The position numbers and the translations under genes are program-made. 64,000 bases of DNA, taken from Acholoe squamosa (lineage: Eukaryota; Annelida; Polychaeta; Phyllodocida; Polynoidae). The stretch covers positions 43,633,269 through 43,697,268 of the forward strand of contig OX439041.1 of NCBI GenBank assembly GCA_949317995.1, in the 5' to 3' direction. Under the pieces are notes generated by a model, which saw only the letters and a program-made list of their open reading frames with translations, did not search any database and was not told the origin of the DNA. Within the stretch, counting starts at the first letter, position 1, and each line of letters starts with the position of its first letter. Positions 17,321-51,997 of the stretch are shown here, piece by piece.

Positions 17321-18768
17321 ATGAGGAATCCAATTAAAACAATGGATGGGGCGGAGGAGATGTACAAAAGGCCAAGCACAAGATGCTCAGCATCACCTCT
17401 CAAAAATAGAGCACCAAGCTACCACTCCGAGCTCAGACTCCACCATTACCAGAGCAGGGTACACCAGGTACACACCCGTCTCACCGGTACCCTAGAGGCA
17501 GGGTAGCCTACCAGGTGAGGCGACCTATATTTGGGGACCACTACCCAAGGATGCCACTCAAGGGCTACAGGGATATCACCTTCAAACACAGACAAAATGG
17601 ATACCTGGCCTCACACTACAGCAACCTACAGGAGGGAGGGCCAAGGAGGCCAGTACATTCCATATCACCTGAGGAAGACATGGAATATTACAGAGTGGAT
17701 GCAGTACACACTGCCATACACAGAAAGACCTTGACTCCCCAGAACCCGCCTCCACAGCACGCAACGCCAGGGCTGGCGCCACACCACCTGGAGGCACTCA
17801 ACCGTCACCTGGTGGCACACAGAGCTGAATCCGATGCCCCAGCCAACAGACCAGCCCCACCCACTCAGGACATGGACACAGGGGAGCTGGAGAAGGTGGA
17901 AGTGCTGGACTCACCACTAACAGCAGTAAAGATCCGTAAAGAAGAGCCTATTGACAAGACTACAGACCCTGTAAGGGCCAATGTAAAAACACTGATCAGC
18001 GACATATACAAGGCACCCCTGGGGAAGACGGACACAGCAACGCTGTATGAGAAATACCCCAGACCAGACAACCTGGACAGCCTCCACAAGACGAGAATAA
18101 ACCAAGAGATCCTTGATGAGCTGGAAGCTAAGCTGTTCACAGCTTAGCTGGAAGCTAAGCTGTGAAGAGGGATGCACCCTACAAGTCCATGCAATGGGCC
18201 CTCCAATTTGCAGCCAGACCACTGATATCAGCACTCAACCGTCTGGACGCAAAAACACAGACCCCAAAGGAAATGGCAGTAAAAATATTTGACTCCCTAA
18301 CCCTGAACGCCAAAACCTCCTAAATAATATGAGATCACTCCTTAAGAACACTGTTGCAGGCCCCACTTCACACCTAGCCAAAGACAACAATAACCAAGGC
18401 TTCCAATACCTACTGGGTGACAACCTAAAAGAGGTAGTCACCACAGCAGTAAGCTAGATGACGCCTTCAAGGAAGTCTTCATCACACCCAAAGACAAAAG
18501 GAAGCCTACTAACCAGAGAAACTCCAGCAATGGCCCAGCCCAGGGCCGGGGTCAACTGCGAGGGCACCAACAGCAACAAGACAACAAGTACCACCAAAAC
18601 AACCAACAGTCACGCAGAAACAACAGCCATCAAGGGAAGTATGACGACAAGAGGAAACAACATACCAACAGAGTCCAATACAACAACAGCAAACAACACA
18701 AAAACAAGCAAGACAAATGCCAGCGCAACAGAGGCAGCACCAACAACAGGTGCTAAAAGCAAAAGTAA
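17321..18768 (+). pseudogene. DIRS Gag-like ORF, broken
   Basis: The longest open piece is 17515-18147 (210 codons). An upstream piece at 17321-17506 in another frame may be its N-terminal part. After the stop at 18147 the homologous sequence resumes in other frames. One is the segment around 18164-18320 (AMQ/ALQFAARPLISALNRLD-type, helical). Another is the GDNL box near 18415 that resembles the LFGDDL motif of DIRS Gag proteins. A Q/N/R-rich basic tail reminiscent of a nucleic-acid-binding region follows to about 18768. At least two frameshifts and several stops are needed to read it. Assignment rests on position and these motifs; Gag is the least conserved part of the family. Confidence 0.7.
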
Positions 18769-19592
18769 GTTCACCTACCTCCTACACAAATACAAGTCCT
18801 ACCTTCCAGGCAGGTGGTCAGGGCAGGGAAGCAGACACATGGTCACAATACACATCAGACGGATGGGTATTGGGCATGGTAAAGGGCCTACCCATAAGCC
18901 TCTTCTCCCTGCCTACTCAGGTGAGACAACCTGACTCTAGGTGTTTGGACCCAGTGAAAGACAGAATTATGAGTAAACAACCTGAAAAACTTCTACCACA
19001 AGGCATAATAGAACCTGCCTTCCCATCACCTAGAGCCTTTGTCTCACACATGTTCCTAAAAGAAAAATCTAATGGAACATACAGGCCCATACTAAACTTG
19101 TCAAGCTTAAATGAATACACATCATATAAGCATTTCAAGATGGACCACCTGTCAGTAGTTATGAATACGTTACCATAAGACAGCTACCTAACCAGCATAG
19201 ACATAACCCAGGCCTACTTTTCACTACCGGTAGAATTAAGGGACAGGGACCTCCTACAACTAATACACCATGGCAAGAGATATAGATTCACCTGCTTCCC
19301 CAATGGCTACTCCCCAGGGCCTAGAATCTTTACAAAAATCATGAAAGCTTTCATGGCACACCTGAGAACAAAACATGGGGTAAACCTTGTCTTTTATATA
19401 GACAACACACTAATTTATGCAGACACAAAAGAGGAAGTCAGAACAGCCACAATACACACACTCAGGGTGCTACAAAATGCAGGCTTTATGATTAACTTTG
19501 ACAAATCAGTCCTAGGTCCAACACAAACAATTGAGTACCTGGGCTTCACACTGCACTCACCCACACTAACACTCACGGTACCAAAGAGAATA
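18717..19592 (+). pseudogene. DIRS reverse transcriptase domain, broken
   Basis: Frame 18717-19178 holds the DIRS lead-in (TSDGWVLGMVKG) and the RT core start (LPQGIIEP, FVSHMFLKEKSNGTYRPILN, the K-HFKMD block). A stop at 19179 is followed in the same frame by TSIDITQAYFSLP, which carries the first catalytic aspartate, and by YRFTCFPNGYSPGPR. 19341-19664 has the catalytic box as FYIDN where the family has YxDD, so the last aspartate is replaced by asparagine. The thumb-side EYLGF block follows. Similarity ends at about 19592, where foreign sequence begins. Confidence 0.88.
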
Positions 19593-19945
19593 CTCAACAT
19601 CCATGTAGAGGCGGATGTTGAGTATTCTCAACACCATGTAGGGGCTGATGTTGAGTATAATTGACATAGATAACTGATATGGCAGTCATGTTTGGAAATT
19701 TGAGATAGATTTAAGTGGAGTGCCAATTTTGTCTCAGGATGTTATTTGCCTATTTTGGGGCTGAGGAATTAGAATCTCGGAAGTTTAGAATGATAGACAT
19801 TGGAAAATGATATCAAAGTTATGGATAGTGCATTATACCTTGCAACCTCTCGCCCCCTGGTAAATGTACTGCTTGAAATCCAGTCCCCCAGGCTTTCAAA
19901 GTACCCTCATAGCTCACCCTTAATTGGTTAAGGTACAAATATGTA
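19593..19945. mobile_element. ~320 bp insertion between DIRS RT and RNase H
   Basis: DIRS proteins normally need only about 10-15 residues between the last RT block and the TIRKFSQVLG-like block, but here ~350 bases intervene. The insert opens with a 16 bp-arm hairpin (19587-19628, AGAATACTCAACATCC mirrored), followed by a second ATGTTGAGTAT copy at 19644-19656. The remainder is AT-rich with stops in all frames. No TIR pair or target duplication is evident, so the type of insertion is unresolved. Confidence 0.7.
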
Positions 19946-20946
19946 CCATAAGAAAATTCTCGCAGGTTCTAGGAGCCCTAGCAGCCACAGAACCAGGAAA
20001 TGACAGAGCAAAGGTACTTAACAAAAAGCTCATCATTGCAAAAAAACAGGCCTTAATAACGACACAGGGTAACTATGACAAATTCATTCCCCTCAAAGGG
20101 TTCATAAAACCAACCTTGAGAGAAAACCTACAGTACCTGCCACTCGCAAAGAAAACGTACACAGAAAAGTGCCCACAGACAACCCTATACATAGACTCCT
20201 CAGACACAGGGAGGGGTGCCTACATCCCTGAAACATACTCTGAATATTGGGAAGAATGGTGTGGAGAGATAGAATCCCCCCCCCCCATAAACATAAAAGA
20301 AATCTTAGCAGTCCACAGGGCACTCCTACATTTCAGAAAATCCCTGACTGGAAAACACATACCCATGTTCATAGACAACACCACAGCTATCAGCTGCCTT
20401 AACAAAGCCAATCCATTCTATGCAATAAAGCCACTGAAAGTGTATTAAGACTGGCCTGGGAAATGGACATAACATTCAAAACCACATACATTCCCTCACA
20501 ATGTTGAGGCAGACAGGGCCTCAAGAGCCTTCTCCACGGCAGGAGAATGGACACTAAGCCCCGAAAACCAACAGAAAATATTAAAAAAGTTCCTGAAACC
20601 TGAGATTGACTTATTTGCATCACCTTCCAATGCAATATGCAAACACTTTGTATCTCTACATCACTACCCAAATGTATATGCAACAGATGCATTCTCCATA
20701 ACCTGGTCAGGCCTGTTTGTACTCATATTTCCACCCTTTGGTATCATTGGCAGAACACTAAGGAAACAGAAGGAAGACAGACCGGAGTGGAAGACACAAT
20801 CCTGGTACCCCGGCCTCAAGAGACTGCCCACCTTCAAGGACAGATGGACCCTCAGGGTCAACACATCAACGCTGCAGTGGCCAGAGGGTCAGAAGAAAAT
20901 CTTCCCCATGGCCAACAGGATGAGACTCCTATGCCTGCCTCTATGA
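19946..20946 (+). pseudogene. DIRS RNase H and downstream domain, broken
   Basis: The piece ending at 20448 shows the RNase H acidic residues: LYIDSSDTGRGAYIP (first Asp), NIKEILAVHRAL (Glu) and MFIDNTTAISCLNK (second Asp). After a frameshift the block continues with HNVEADRASR, IDLFASPSN, a DAFSITWSG segment and FPPFGII. These match the conserved order after RNase H in DIRS and related retroelements (ADxLSR, IDLFAS, AxDAF, FPPF). The frame ends at a stop near 20946. A ten-C run at 20278-20287 lies inside the RNase H frame. Confidence 0.88.
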
Positions 20947-21029
20947 ATGACATGCACCCCTTGGAAATCATCTGGTGCGACCATATAGGAATATCCAAGG
21001 CATCCTGGGAGCTCCTCATGGCTTCATAG

Positions 21030-21598
21030 TCAACATCTACCATAGCCATCTACGCAACAGCAGCAAGGAAGTGGCTAAAACACACCATCAAAAACAACGT
21101 CAGCGTCACCCTCCCCACAATATACCAATGTGTAGATTTCCTAACAGAGATCTCCAACAGTGGGGTGGGACACTCATCAGTAGCCACCACCAGGTCCCTG
21201 ATGTCATGCTTCATCTACATAGAAGGCAGACCATCTGGGGAAGTTTGATAAGCATGGAGACACACAGATATGTGTCTACTCACACCTGAAGGCCTACTTG
21301 GACAGGGAGGACACAAAGGGAGCACACCCCAGAGTGTTTGGCACCATCAAAACGCATTAAAGTGACCCTAAGAGACACAGGCATACAGGAACACTTTGGG
21401 GCATATAGCACAAGACAAGCCGCCACCAGTGCACCGGACCGGCTAAATGTACCAATAAATGATATACTCAGCTCGGCAGGATGGGCAAGAACCAATACAT
21501 TTGCCAGGTTCTTCTACAACATACCTCTACTGGAAGATACAGAGGACAACACACACGAGACTTACTTTATAACTGCCATCATGAACCGTGACTCTTAG
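21030..21598 (+). pseudogene. DIRS tyrosine recombinase, broken
   Basis: Two frames are needed. 21030-21248 encodes the N-terminal core-binding-like helices (IAIYATAARKWLKH, a DFLTEISNSGVGHSSVATTRS segment) and ends in a stop. 21338-21598 encodes the C-terminal catalytic part: GAYSTRQAATSAP, then SSAGWARTNTFARFFYNIP with the presumed nucleophilic tyrosine in FFYN. The family's HSTR box reads YSTR here, so the catalytic-site histidine is replaced by tyrosine. The first catalytic arginine box falls in the broken middle and cannot be confirmed. Confidence 0.85.
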
Positions 21599-33200: not shown

Positions 33201-33702
33201 GAGAGTTCGTGCAAGCTGGCACCAAATGCCCATACCGTAGGTCTATGGTTTAGAGATTGAAACTATGAACTGAATTGTTCACAAAGAGGCAGCGAGGTCA
33301 AGGTCGCATGCAATCTTGTTGAGAGCCGTAGATTAAATGTAGTATCTGACCTCTCCCCCTCTCAAAAATCAGAGCAACAAGTGTACCTACAGAGACTATC
33401 TTACAAAAAATTCGCCATCGTTCTACTCGTGACAGATTGTCAAAATAGAAAAATCCAATATGGCAAGTGAACAGGGAGACGATCGGTCCCGGGGCAGAAG
33501 ACCGGCATGGCAACGAAATGTTTACGGGAAGTGTAAGGGTAGGTCCCGGCCCGAGTGGTCATCCGCCGCCGCGTTCATTCCACGCCTTGGCGTGGATGTA
33601 TTTTATATTATGATAATGAAAGAAGGCCGAAAGGAATAGTGTGACTGAAGACGAACACCCAAAATCTTTCAGAAATTGTAGTGTGTGGTATTGTGATAAG
33701 GG
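30295..33702. other. Gene-free stretch
   Basis: A GT-repeat running into ~20 G lies at 31387-31417. ORFs 30764-31087 (+) and 30992-31538 (-) overlap on opposite strands and neither looks like a protein family. 33470-33600 is locally CpG-rich (CCGCCGCCGCG) but lacks a clear promoter motif set. Nothing else supportable. Confidence 0.4.
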
Positions 33703-33978
33703 CTAAATAAAACTTGTTGGGTTCGGATAACAGAGTCGTAAAAATTAGGTTAGGTAGGTCTTGTTTTGTTATTTCAAAGAATTTTTGTTAAGGCTGGCTG
33801 TCGATTTTTCATACTTTTAGACACATTTTATGCATGGGATCGTAAGTGTTTTTCTTCACTTTTCCACAAAAGCGCCAGAAAATCAGTTGTTTTTTTTCAC
33901 AGAGAGGTCTCTAATTGATTTAGGATAGGGCCAGAAATATAGGGTAGGTAGCGTTATATGAATGCAAAAATTCTTACA
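33703..33978. mobile_element. Inverted-repeat MITE, copy 2 (diverged)
   Basis: It follows the same order as 7698-7977: a GTTGGGTTCGGATAAC end, TTAGGTTAGGTAGG, AGAATTTTTGT-AAGGC-GGCTGT, AGGGCCA-AAATA, and GTAGGTAGCGTTATATGAA. Both ends are eroded. Confidence 0.65.
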
Positions 33979-34064
33979 GGTAAGAGATTCAACACTTGAC
34001 GTACTGTCACGAGGGGACTTGGCATTGTAAGCAATAAGATTAAGGGCCATGCCATGTATATAAG

Positions 34065-34285
34065 TGTAGTGGTCAGCGGAAAATGTCATGGAGAAACCGG
34101 GACTCGAACCCGGGACCCTCCAACTTCGAAGCGGAAGCTCTACCCCTGAGCTACTTCCCCTGGCCTGATATTCTCTACCTTCCAACTACCCTGGATCAGT
34201 ATGGTATACATAGGGGGAGTGACACAATCAAGTGAACAGTCCCTCTGAAGGCTCTGCGCACCGGACGGGGGAACGAACCCCTACA
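34065..34285 (-). repeat. TRIM terminal repeat, 3' LTR in element sense
   Basis: TGTAGTGGTC to CCCCTACA on the + strand. The outer bases are also inverted relative to each other (TGTAG...CTACA), as in retroviral-type LTRs. It holds the tRNA-like sequence at 34089-34160. The hairpin-forming GGGGGAACGAACCCC is near its right edge. Confidence 0.85.
34089..34160 (-). tRNA. tRNA-Ala-like sequence inside TRIM LTR (not a functional gene call)
   Basis: A full 72-base cloverleaf can be drawn on the minus strand: 7 bp acceptor including a G3-U70 wobble, D arm GCTC/GAGC, a weak anticodon stem, 5-base variable loop, T arm CCGGG/CCCGG with loop TTCGAGT, and discriminator A. G3-U70 with A73 is the alanine identity signature, and the acceptor, D and T arms resemble tRNA-Ala. 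The anticodon loop TTCGAAG would give CGA and the stem has a mismatch, so decoding function is doubtful. A second copy is at 34566-34637. A and B boxes are intact, so Pol III transcription from the LTR is plausible. Confidence 0.65.
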
Positions 34286-34525
34286 CTCGTCCCAACCAGC
34301 TTCGACCGTATCTGCCCAGAACTGGTCCTCCAGTCCAGTCTGAACAGTACCACATGTACCCATACTGAGTCACGCACAACCCGTATAGGCTCCTGTTCCC
34401 AGGAACGGCTGTGTGTGCCACCTGTTTCCAAGTTCCTCAGCACTAGCAGGTCGAAGCGCTTGTCTATACCATACCGGCCCAGGTACCGAGCTCTCTAAAG
34501 ATCCCCCTTGTGAGGCGGGACCACT

Positions 34526-34539
34526 CGGTTTCTCCACCA
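34526..34539 (-). promoter_or_regulatory. Primer-binding site complementary to LTR tRNA end
   Basis: Minus-strand TGGTGGAGAAACCG pairs over 14 bases with CGGTTTCTCC, discriminator A, CCA. The first eleven of these are exactly the 3' end of the tRNA-like sequence carried in the LTRs. CCA itself is not encoded in the LTR copies, so it matches a mature, CCA-tailed transcript. Confidence 0.8.
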
Positions 34540-34540
34540 C

Positions 34541-34756
34541 TGTAGTGGTCAGCGGAAAATGTCATGGAGAAACCGGGACTCGAACCCGGGACCCTCCAAC
34601 TTTGAAGTGGAAGCTCTACCCCTGAGCTACTTCCCCTGACATTCTCTACCTTCCAACTACCCTGGATCGGTATGGTATACATAGGGGGAGTGACACAATC
34701 AAGTGAACAGTCCATCTGAAGGCTCTGCGCACCGGACGGGGGAACTAACCCCTACA
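34541..34756 (-). repeat. TRIM terminal repeat, 5' LTR in element sense
   Basis: Direct copy of 34065-34285. It has a 5 bp deletion near 34638 relative to the other repeat, and substitutions in the tRNA-like anticodon loop (TTCAAAG versus TTCGAAG). Confidence 0.85.
34566..34637 (-). tRNA. Second tRNA-Ala-like sequence in the other LTR
   Basis: Same 72-base structure as 34089-34160, with anticodon loop TTCAAAG. It keeps the G3-U70 pair and both Pol III boxes. Confidence 0.6.
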
Positions 34757-35052
34757 TAAGTACTAGGGGTAGTGTATGTGTTATCATATAGAAAAAGTAC
34801 CACGCATGATGTATCGCTGTTTTAGAATAATGTTATGAAATTGCAAAAAGATATCACTGCCAGTTTCATTATAAGAGGGGTAACCAGCTCTGTTTCCAGT
34901 ACCACTGATAACTCTTTCCAATGTATACCAAGACAGACACACAACAGCTCTACTTTTTATGGAAATGCTTTTAGAACACAGCAATTGCAGAATTATGATT
35001 AGTGCTAAGCCTGTGTATTTAAATCCATTAATCAATCCTTTGAACGTCATAA

Positions 35053-35180
35053 GGGCTGCATCAACTGCCGACGGATGGACCATCCGTCAGTTTCATCCGT
35101 TTTATTTATCATTGATTTCTATGGAGAAATAACGGATGAAGGGAGACAGATGGTCCATCCGTCGGCAGTGAATGCAGCCC
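35053..35180. mobile_element. 128 bp MITE, GGGCTGCA ends
   Basis: GGGCTGCATCAACTGCCGAC and then GGATGGACCATC is mirrored at 35148-35180. It is flanked by TAA on the left and TAT on the right, compatible with a decayed TWA duplication. The GGGC start suits PIF/Harbinger. Confidence 0.85.
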
Positions 35181-36980
35181 TATAGAAGAAGGCTTAGGGA
35201 AGACTTGAGAGAATAAATTACAGGTAGTATGCATCACTCAGAATATTCAAAAAGAAAACGAAAAGAACGAACCTATAGTAAAAGCATCAACCTGGCAACA
35301 GCATAGAGATTTAGTTGTTTACCTTTAGATCTCAGAACATAACTTGGGGAATATATATGTATGTGACACATTTTTATTTGCTTTCTCAATTCCTTGGACA
35401 TTTGGAATCGACCAGTCCCAGGATATAGCAAAGTTACATATAGATTCCATCAGGTTCATTGACAAGTTACGTTTATCGCCCTAGAGGCCAGTATGAATAT
35501 TCAGCCAAAGCTAGCTAAACACTGGCATGATAGATATATTGAGAACACACCCCTTCCAATTGCAGAGCAATCCTCCCCAGACGTTGGCTATTGGGAGCAC
35601 AGACAACTACATTACGGGTTTAAATACTAATAACATCCATGAGGCAGTATTAGATATATGTCTAGCCCCCTCCCAGACACAAAAGGCCCCCTTCTCACAC
35701 TCATTTCTGAGCAGTTCTCTGAGTCTTTTCTATATATCTACTTTCATCTCACAACCATGACTCCTAGATGAGGAGCCCCATATCCCACTATCATCCCACT
35801 GCCATGGGTCTGTGGCTACCATGTCTCTGTGAGCTCCCTATACTTCAACAATCGTACTTATGTAGCAGAATCTGGTCTATATTCTATAATCAATATCAAC
35901 TGAGAAGCTAGAACATTATTGTCAATACATCGTGAATTATTGCAAAGCCTGGCAAAAATTCCCACAGCAGATTCGAAGTCATGCCTAATACAGTGGTGCT
36001 TTATTTGCTCCGAGTTTTCGAAGCCCTGGGCCGAATACCTTTTTGTCTATACTACTGCACACTCGTAGGCCCATCAATTGCTGGTAAGTGAGTGTGGAAA
36101 TTGTGAATAGAGAAGTGGGGGTCTCGGTTATTTGATTTTACGGAAGGTCGCAGTGAAATGATATTTTGGTGAAAATAGTTCATGTCCTGTCAGAGCACTA
36201 GGGGTATCTTCATCGTACCTAGAGTACCTCATAATTATAGGCTAGCGTGCGACCTCAAGAAGTCCTCTTAGTCATGTAGTACAGCTCATCTAGTCACATG
36301 ATGTAGCATTAATCTTGAACCAGATAAATAAGGCCATACAAACCATGATTACATACTCCAAGCTCTAATAGAATTTGAAAAAAAAACGACAACCCTAATG
36401 ATACTGTCCCTATGCCGTAGAACTACTTTTGCCAAAAGTATTTGTTTATAAAAATTGCATCGAGGCTATTTGCTCTGACAGTGACGCTTGGGAGTCTGCA
36501 GTATGACGACTTCTTGAGAATCACGACTTGTGGCAATTATATGGTATAACTCTAATGCTTAGAGTGTTGCAAGAGAGCCCAATAGAACCTCGAATATGGT
36601 GTAGTGGTACTAGATCACCTTAAAAGGGTATAATGTCGGTATAATCATGGACCTGTTAGTATATATTGTACAGGTCCATGGTATAATGATACCCAGGTTG
36701 CATTAGGAGGGATACACTTGTACACAGAGAACCTCAAAAGAGGCCCAGAGTACATCAGAAGGTGGGAATCTCTAAATCCTCCAAGCGCTTCCACAGTTAC
36801 TCATACCCCTACAGACCTGTCCAAGGGTGATATAGTAGCTCACTGTCAGAAAGCCCCTACACCACTTCTGTCCCTACAGGCCAGTGAAGTATGGCCCCTG
36901 GACCTCTTTGAAGACACCCCCTCCCAAATCTCACACTGACTAAGGACCTCGTTACCCGCTCCCCCGGATACCAACCCCCG
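35181..36980. other. Gene-free stretch
   Basis: 36630-36692 is a short foldback (GGTATAATCATGGACCTGT mirrored around a TATATA-like loop). ORFs 35527-35760 and 36718-36939 have no family resemblance. The second lies just upstream of the promoter-like cluster and could only matter if transcription were on the + strand through it. Confidence 0.4.
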
Positions 36981-50865: not shown

Positions 50866-51600
50866 ATTTGTGGAAGACCCTGGGCCAGTCGTGCATTGCA
50901 CACGTTAAATCTTTGAATAGAGCCAACACCACACACCCAGTTTTAATTAGAATTCACTGAAAGACGAGAGTGCTAACAATTTGAACTATCTACACAGATG
51001 CCCCTGTTGGTAGGAATACTTTTACTGTGTAGCTAGACTATCTTTATTGAATGGTATTGATTTAGGGCAGCATATTGACTAAATCATTGATTTCCCACTT
51101 TTGTCCACCATAGAGTAGCATATATATTATATAGGCTGAGCCTTTCCTGGACTGCTATAATTAACACTCTTTAAAATAATGCCCACAATATGCTATGCAT
51201 TGCACATGTTTCAGTATAATTGGTGTAATGGTCAAGCTACAATCTGTGACTGCCCTTCTGCACACAAGACATGGAAATACTTTGCACTACCTTGTTCATG
51301 TAGATGCAGAAGTAAACCCTCAACCTACTGTTAAACCCTGTGTATAAGCCGTATAAGTCGTAATTGATAACATAACTTAATACGCCTATTACTCACATAT
51401 TACATGTATTAGTGCATTGGCATTTGCGTTGTTCGAGCAGCTCATGACTGTCTTTGGCCTAATACAATAGTATAGTAAAAAGGAGATGCCCAAGAATATG
51501 AAATTAATCAATTTGCCCTTTTTACTATTATGAGACAAAGGTATTGAAATTAAATCATGATAAACTGTCAAAAGCTACTGATGTTTTCAATAACAATAAA
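50866..51600. other. AT-rich gene-free stretch
   Basis: Nothing recognised. Confidence 0.3.
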
Positions 51601-51602
51601 AA

Positions 51603-51955
51603 ACAATCAATGCACTGTGCCATCCATAAATAATTAAGTGTGCATCAATGCATCATGACATCCATAAAGGGTAAAGTGTGCATCAATGCACTGTGCCATC
51701 CATAAAGGTTTAAGTGTGCATCATACCATCCATAAAGGTTTAAGTGTGCATCAATGCATCATGCTATCCATAAAGGGTTAAGTGTGCACCAATGCATCAT
51801 GCCATCCATAAAGGTTTAAGTGTGCATCAATGCATCATATCATCCATAAAGGTTTGAGTGTGCATCAATGCATCGTGCCATCCATAAAGGGTTAACTGTG
51901 CATCAATGCATCGTGCCATCCATAAAGAGTTAACTGTGCATCAATGCATCATGCA
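51603..51955. repeat. 38 bp minisatellite, about nine copies
   Basis: The unit is GTGTGCATCAATGCATCATG, CCATCCATAAAGG and TTTAA. One copy is shortened by loss of CAATGCAT. A SINE abuts it after 38 bases. Its component words are scattered elsewhere in the window (2.1-2.7, 4.0-4.6, 7.2-7.7, 46.5-46.9 kb). Confidence 0.93.
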
Positions 51956-51997
51956 GGAGGGTGCTGCCTTAGCATAAATCACTACACCTTTAACAAA

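Follow-up and report, generated by a model that had tools for sequence, protein, structure and literature searches.

A Helenus-type TRIM whose LTR-borne tRNA gene may supply its own reverse-transcription primer

The 692-bp element at positions 34065-34756 of the window (the whole 64-kb stretch of DNA that was analysed) is best read, with a probability of about 0.77, as a Helenus-type TRIM in which the complete tRNA gene carried by the LTR would supply the element's own primer for reverse transcription. Across the family to which it belongs, the match between the primer-binding site (PBS) and the LTR tRNA is systematic, and the two change together. The accepted view is that retroviruses and LTR retroelements prime with tRNAs borrowed from the host or, in rare cases, with one end of their own RNA. 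If the reading is true, an element-borne primer tRNA would loosen the dependence on host tRNAs, would explain the presence of a tRNA in the LTR and would provide a natural experiment in which primer swaps are readable from the PBS. A link between tRNA and PBS was sought in the published Helenus survey, which reports none (PMC10886601).

Anatomy of the element and its LTR tRNA genes

Re-reading of the letters by script identified a 692-bp LTR element with its sense strand on the minus strand, and confirmed the 221- and 216-bp TG...CA repeats and the TAAG duplication described in the initial annotation. The features are:

34061-34064, target-site duplication TAAG, one side
34757-34760, target-site duplication TAAG, other side
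34541-34756, minus strand, 5' LTR, 216 bp
34565-34636, minus strand, tRNA-like gene of the 5' LTR, anticodon triplet CAA (ARAGORN; Rfam RF00005, 53.4 bits, E 3.3e-10)
34556-34559, minus strand, TTTT, possible Pol III terminator of the 5' LTR, 5 nt past the discriminator (script re-reading)
34526-34539, minus strand, PBS TGGTGGAGAAACCG, complementary to the LTR tRNA 3' end plus CCA, 14/14 (script re-reading)
34286-34293, minus strand, weak polypurine tract GGGACGAG, adjoining the 3' LTR (by position only)
34065-34285, minus strand, 3' LTR, 221 bp
34089-34160, minus strand, tRNA-like gene of the 3' LTR, anticodon triplet CGA (ARAGORN; Rfam RF00005, 51.3 bits, E 1.2e-9)
34080-34083, minus strand, TTTT, possible Pol III terminator of the 3' LTR (script re-reading)

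Read along the minus strand, the 5' LTR is followed by a single spacer base, the PBS at 34539-34526, the internal region, a possible polypurine tract that amounts to no more than the weak GGGACGAG, and the 3' LTR. The 14-mer that had been noticed one base inside the LTR is indeed complementary, at all 14 positions, to the acceptor end, the discriminator and CCA. This CCA is non-encoded; the LTR tRNA copies that were read are not followed by CCA.

The two LTRs, a length below about 1 kb, the TG...CA ends, the short target duplication and the PBS beside the 5' LTR place the element among TRIMs; the tRNA-derived LTR sequence with A and B boxes and the 4-bp target duplication, as in animal Helenus, place it with Helenus. 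A tRNA-derived SINE, which has neither LTRs nor PBS, is excluded by the presence of both. No 5S-derived sequence, the mark of Cassandra and Ajax, was detected in 33500-35300, where Rfam finds tRNA only.

The description of a 72-nt tRNA-Ala-like block in each LTR was upheld in part. Both LTR genes are called as tRNA folds and have G3-U70, A73 and the A and B boxes; the anticodon triplets CAA and CGA are not those of Ala and lead ARAGORN to assign Leu and Ser. Elsewhere in the family, Rfam scores were 68.5 bits for a family-2 copy (L041) and 37-40 bits for a family-3 copy (L047), compared with 68.4 for one host tRNA-Ala-TGC gene and 49.4 for one host tRNA-Ala-AGC gene. Among 48 unbiased loci of contig C1, the ARAGORN calls were mostly Ser(cga) (47), Ala(tgc) (17) and Leu(caa) (9). 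As the anticodon loops are variable, decoding does not appear to be the conserved property. Within 125 LTR tRNA blocks fitting a loose tRNA pattern, which favours intact blocks, T4 or T5 follows 4-7 nt past the discriminator in all 125, and one acceptor pairing with G3-U70 is common to 93. Counting against the LTR tRNA as a primer, the cloverleaf is not the minimum-energy fold of the unmodified RNA.

G3-U70 is the alanine identity rule for tRNA charging. LTR tRNAs such as that at 34565-34636 (minus strand) join a G3-U70 acceptor to Ser or Leu anticodon triplets, and could mistranslate if charged with alanine.

A dispersed family in which tRNA and PBS co-vary

The host genome (1.48 Gb, 63 contigs) was searched for further copies. 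The full 692-bp unit gave 42 matches, from 40 scored of 3534 first-look candidates. LTR|PBS junctions of one LTR-end type numbered 805 (reversed control, 16), and a pattern joining the tRNA end to the PBS matched 1572 sites (control, 0). In the latter pattern CTCCA, TGGTGGAG and a portion of the T arm were held constant, and variation was allowed at tRNA positions 63-68 and at the three bases of the PBS opposite 66-68. The 88 loci of the TRIM search contain 78 junctions, of which 59 could be bounded; with each copy scored by its best end among up to a few candidates, 38 of these 59 have a perfect 4-bp duplication, and the remainder agree at three of four bases (10), two (7) or one (4). The 38 perfect duplications comprise 32 different sequences. 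Median LTR-LTR identity in these 38 copies is 0.984, with identical LTRs in three, which indicates that some insertions are recent. Copies are thus dispersed with differing target duplications, and ARAGORN together with the loose-pattern survey showed that other copies carry the tRNA-like block too, so that these refuting conditions of the initial annotation do not hold. A local tandem duplication or chance repeat was rejected on the grounds of this dispersal, the differing target duplications and the low controls. The TGG complementary to CCA is intact in 35 of 39 junctions from 40 family loci selected without regard to the PBS. An exact search of viral contigs with one pattern returned 0 matches.

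Tandems of the form LTR-internal-LTR-internal-LTR occur at L021, L034, L069 and L111, the last recognised from its spacing and a third tRNA. Six loci (L044, L046, L048, L053, L054 and L056) form a sub-group with a different internal start, AGCATCCTAACGCAATC; the U3 of L044 appears to contain the internal start of family 3, pointing to chimeric elements.

The coupling is visible at the free positions. Among 100 sites listed of the 1572, tRNA positions 66-68 match the facing PBS bases in 95, in the states TTT/AAA (77), TGT/ACA (16) and TAT/ATA (2); the five mismatched sites are TGT/ATA, TAT/ACA, TTT/AGA, CAT/ACA and TGT/GCA. At position 67, agreement is found in 96 of the 100 listed sites, against a mean of 63.6 and a maximum of 76 over 10000 shuffles of the PBS letters. 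In the C1 sample, 49 junctions were read, 44 of them with a tRNA end; 30 match at 14/14 and 41 of the 44 agree at position 67, the exceptions being L049, L050 and L114.

Because shuffling ignores relatedness, swap pairs and trees were added as tests. In pair A (LTR end ACCACTACA), 16 T67 copies, with spacer G, were compared with 10 G67 copies; their majority sequences differ at 16 of 68 tRNA columns, 3 of 81 in U3, 4 of 23 in the LTR tail, 1 of 130 in the internal region and 1 of 14 in the PBS. In pair B (LTR end ACCTCTACA, spacer C), 2 T67 and 4 G67 copies differ at 16 of 69 tRNA columns, 0 of 104 in U3, 0 of 22 in the tail, 13 of 158 in the internal region and 1 of 13 in the PBS. In both pairs the PBS change facing position 67 is A to C, as demanded by the T-to-G change in the tRNA. 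Since the LTR ends differ between the two backgrounds and sit between tRNA and PBS, the transfer of one block is insufficient to account for both.

Trees were made without the tRNA and PBS columns from 79 of 83 rows; four A67 rows (two matching, two not) were omitted, and L049 and L050 are absent because their LTR tRNA falls outside the pattern. The internal tree yields 2 supported independent pairs (8 on all branches) and the U3 tree 3 (5), all concordant; these are too few for a sign test, which counts against the reading. Copies with an LTR identity of at least 0.985 (n=19) have a 14/14 match to the 5' LTR tRNA in 15 cases, or to either LTR in 17; the corresponding counts in older copies (n=19) are 7 and 14. 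As matches are commoner in young copies, mismatches look mostly like decay. L030 and L036 also count against, with a tRNA change common to both LTRs and absent from the PBS, a pattern that would fit a primer coming from another copy.

Candidate sources of the primer

The proposed cycle has four steps. Pol III would transcribe the LTR tRNA, which would be cut at the discriminator and receive CCA. Its 3' end would then pair with the 14-nt PBS beside the 5' LTR, to which it is complementary, and would be extended by the reverse transcriptase of an autonomous LTR element. Finally, plus-strand synthesis would write the primer end into the new PBS, a copying step established for retroviruses (PMC4549124, as far as the accessible text goes). 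Such copying would make the PBS track the LTR tRNA, and tracking is what is observed. The PBS is accordingly read here as a report of the LTR tRNA. It is probable, at slightly lower confidence than the main reading, that every cycle includes expression of the LTR tRNA, addition of CCA and copying of the tRNA into the PBS; primer and PBS would then evolve together, and the tRNA cassette could be exchanged, with the PBS changing to follow it. That the LTR-borne tRNA might act as the element's own primer had been suggested at the outset, and the suggestion gains support from this co-variation and from host Ala ends that mostly differ.

Either a free tRNA or the 3' end of the element RNA, folded like a tRNA, could be the primer. 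Taken furthest, the reading has the element RNA itself ending as a CCA-tailed tRNA that primes on its own PBS. Here Pol III would run from the 5' LTR tRNA to the T4 of the 3' LTR, and the transcript, trimmed at its 3' end and CCA-tailed, would pair with its own PBS or with that of a different copy. Being a sub-case of the best explanation, this version overlaps with it in its odds, and taken separately it is possible though unlikely. Both LTRs carry A and B boxes and T4, and Cassandra is described as transcribed from the 5S of one LTR to that of the other (PMC10886601, in the part of the text available). The T4 of the 5' LTR, however, should stop most transcripts early, and in L030 and L036 the observed change would suit a primer supplied by a different copy. 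Pairing of the tRNA end and PBS within the same RNA would also be expected, could mask the PBS and was counted against the main reading.

Longer PBS-like sites bear on what was copied. A 20-nt pattern (TGGTGGAGNNNCCGGGNNYC) matched 101 sites (control, 1). Among 100 listed, 48 are the exact complement of host tRNA-Ala-AGC plus CCA and are presumably PBSs of other LTR elements, and 39 equal LTR-tRNA types: for T67, AAA with ACTC (21), AGTC (11) or AATC (3), corresponding to T-loops GAGT, GACT and GATT; otherwise ACA with ATTC (3; GAAT, G67) and ATA with AGTC (1). The remaining 13 listed sites are assorted; they include five with the ending CATC, simply internal region in the case of L129, and one (AAC with ACTC) that combines host and LTR types. 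AAA with TATC, expected from three variant host genes described below, was found at 0 of the 100 listed sites. On C1 and the covered part of C2, all three LTR-type sites (C1:111153969, C2:31812571 and C2:79307784) coincide with TRIM junctions, as against 0 of 2 exact host-type sites, and at C1:111153969 the LTR tRNA matches the site 20/20. A 27-nt pattern running through the T arm and unable to match the host AGC type gave 25 sites (control, 0); the 20 shown comprise ACTC (11), AGTC (5), AATC (2) and ATTC of the G67 type (2). Since the LTR tRNA copies that were read lack CCA, the long sites look like copies of a CCA-tailed LTR-type tRNA, and would arise most simply by primer copying beyond the usual 14 nt.

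The long antisense sites might instead be retropseudogenes of CCA-tailed tRNAs, uninformative on priming. This is improbable given the coincidence of all three LTR-type sites on C1 and the covered part of C2 with TRIM junctions, and even so such sites would show that an LTR-type tRNA is made and CCA-tailed.

Doubtful, at longer odds, is priming by an ordinary host tRNA. In that case the LTR tRNA would be only a promoter with a similar origin, as published for Helenus, and its match to the PBS would be inherited or due to chance. In the first 100 listed of 168 matches, host tRNA-Ala-AGC ends in CGGGTTCTCCA and Ala-TGC in CGGCATCTCCA; the PBS complements of these main ends occur at 0 of 100 listed TRIM sites. 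Three tRNA-Ala-AGC genes in a tandem array on contig C12 end in CGGTTTCTCCA and fit the commonest PBS, and tRNA-Ala-AGC appears to prime something in this genome, to judge from the 48 exact complements among the listed 20-nt sites. A genome-wide Ala pattern (D-arm TAGAGC, Ala loop TTNGCAT, end GGT[A/G/T]TCTCCA), which covers Ala genes conforming to it, matched only these three genes; with it, no regular host Ala gene fitting the G67 or A67 PBS types was found. The compatible genes thus fit one of three PBS types. The PBS that the variant AGC gene would give, AAACCGGGTATC, occurs at 0 of the 100 listed 20-nt sites, and in both swap pairs the PBS changes along with the tRNA cassette. Also counted against the main reading are 21 further sites with GGTGTCTCCA (sites ending GTGTCTCCA) in which the next base is other than G; two pairs among them lie 468 bp apart, as in tandem LTRs. 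Taken together, regular host tRNA-Ala genes, as covered by these patterns, do not explain the PBS match.

In the array itself, at C12:51451300-51478919, the tRNA-Ala-AGC genes are spaced at about 290-515 bp, and three of them have the variant 3' end.

Least probable is that the complementarity is kept for a hairpin in the element RNA, as structure or for cleavage self-priming of the Tf1 kind, with no separate CCA-tailed tRNA: 11 nt of the LTR and the PBS do pair about 25 nt apart, forming a stem in a 130-nt fold, and in the LTRs of L049 and L067 the tRNA body is replaced by an inverted internal start, the product expected of snap-back copying at this stem. Against this, the PBS starts with TGG, complementary to a CCA that is absent from the LTR at this point, and the 20-27 nt sites bear both the CCA complement and the T arm.

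The inverted copies in L049 and L067 are 48 and 25 nt long (loose criterion) and are joined at the complement between tRNA end and PBS.

A Pol III promoter role alone for the LTR tRNA is disfavoured by the matching at 66-68, the swap pairs and the long sites. Derivation of the LTR tRNA from primer read-through was rejected, as read-through would predict an antisense tRNA after the PBS and the LTR tRNA is in sense orientation.

Related elements and other features of the window

Helenus, named in Kojima 2024, comprises TRIMs with LTR tRNAs; in the portions available, the paper states that no complementarity to the PBS could be detected in the LTR tRNA, which is said to play no part in initiation (PMC10886601). 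As in Helenus (TRIMp3), the present element is short and non-coding and has a PBS and an LTR tRNA-like sequence with A and B boxes; the 4-bp target duplication is shared with animal Helenus, and the disagreement between anticodon and isotype and the tandem copies with Helenus generally (same source, in part). In contrast to the surveyed Helenus elements, LTR tRNA and PBS here match and co-vary, non-complementarity being reported there and not part of the definition. The animal Helenus primers listed in the accessible text of that paper do not include Ala. The initial annotation's claim that no described element has this coupling needs qualification: TRIMs with an LTR tRNA are known, and the PBS match is unreported for them in the available text (PMC10886601). 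A search of the open-access (PMC) literature found no paper on a self-encoded primer tRNA, and a 2026 meeting report, in the part available, refers to Helenus solely for its use of small-RNA sequences in transcription (PMC12859917).

In the TRIMs Cassandra and Ajax, too, the LTR contains a Pol III-type gene (PMC10886601, in part); theirs is 5S where the present one is a tRNA, and that text does not report that their LTR-borne RNA acts as a primer. The biv-TRIM of bivalves is likewise a non-plant TRIM whose repeats measure about 200 bp and which has tandem copies, but it differs in that no canonical PBS was identified, the internal domain is 77-80 bp and an LTR tRNA goes unmentioned in the sections available (PMC6934838). 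As in LTR elements that self-prime in the Tf1 manner, the primer here would come from the element itself. The Tf1 primer is the 5' end of its own mRNA, whereas a CCA-tailed tRNA end is implied here.

Elsewhere in the window, a broken retroelement at 17410-21289 (plus strand) carries a reverse transcriptase (PF00078), together with an RNase H match that stays below threshold. Tandem repeat arrays with units of about 53 bp and 38 bp occupy 545-1586 and 51570-51988, respectively. A near-perfect, MITE-like inverted repeat lies at 35061-35172, with weak, below-threshold Rfam matches to miRNA precursors on both strands.
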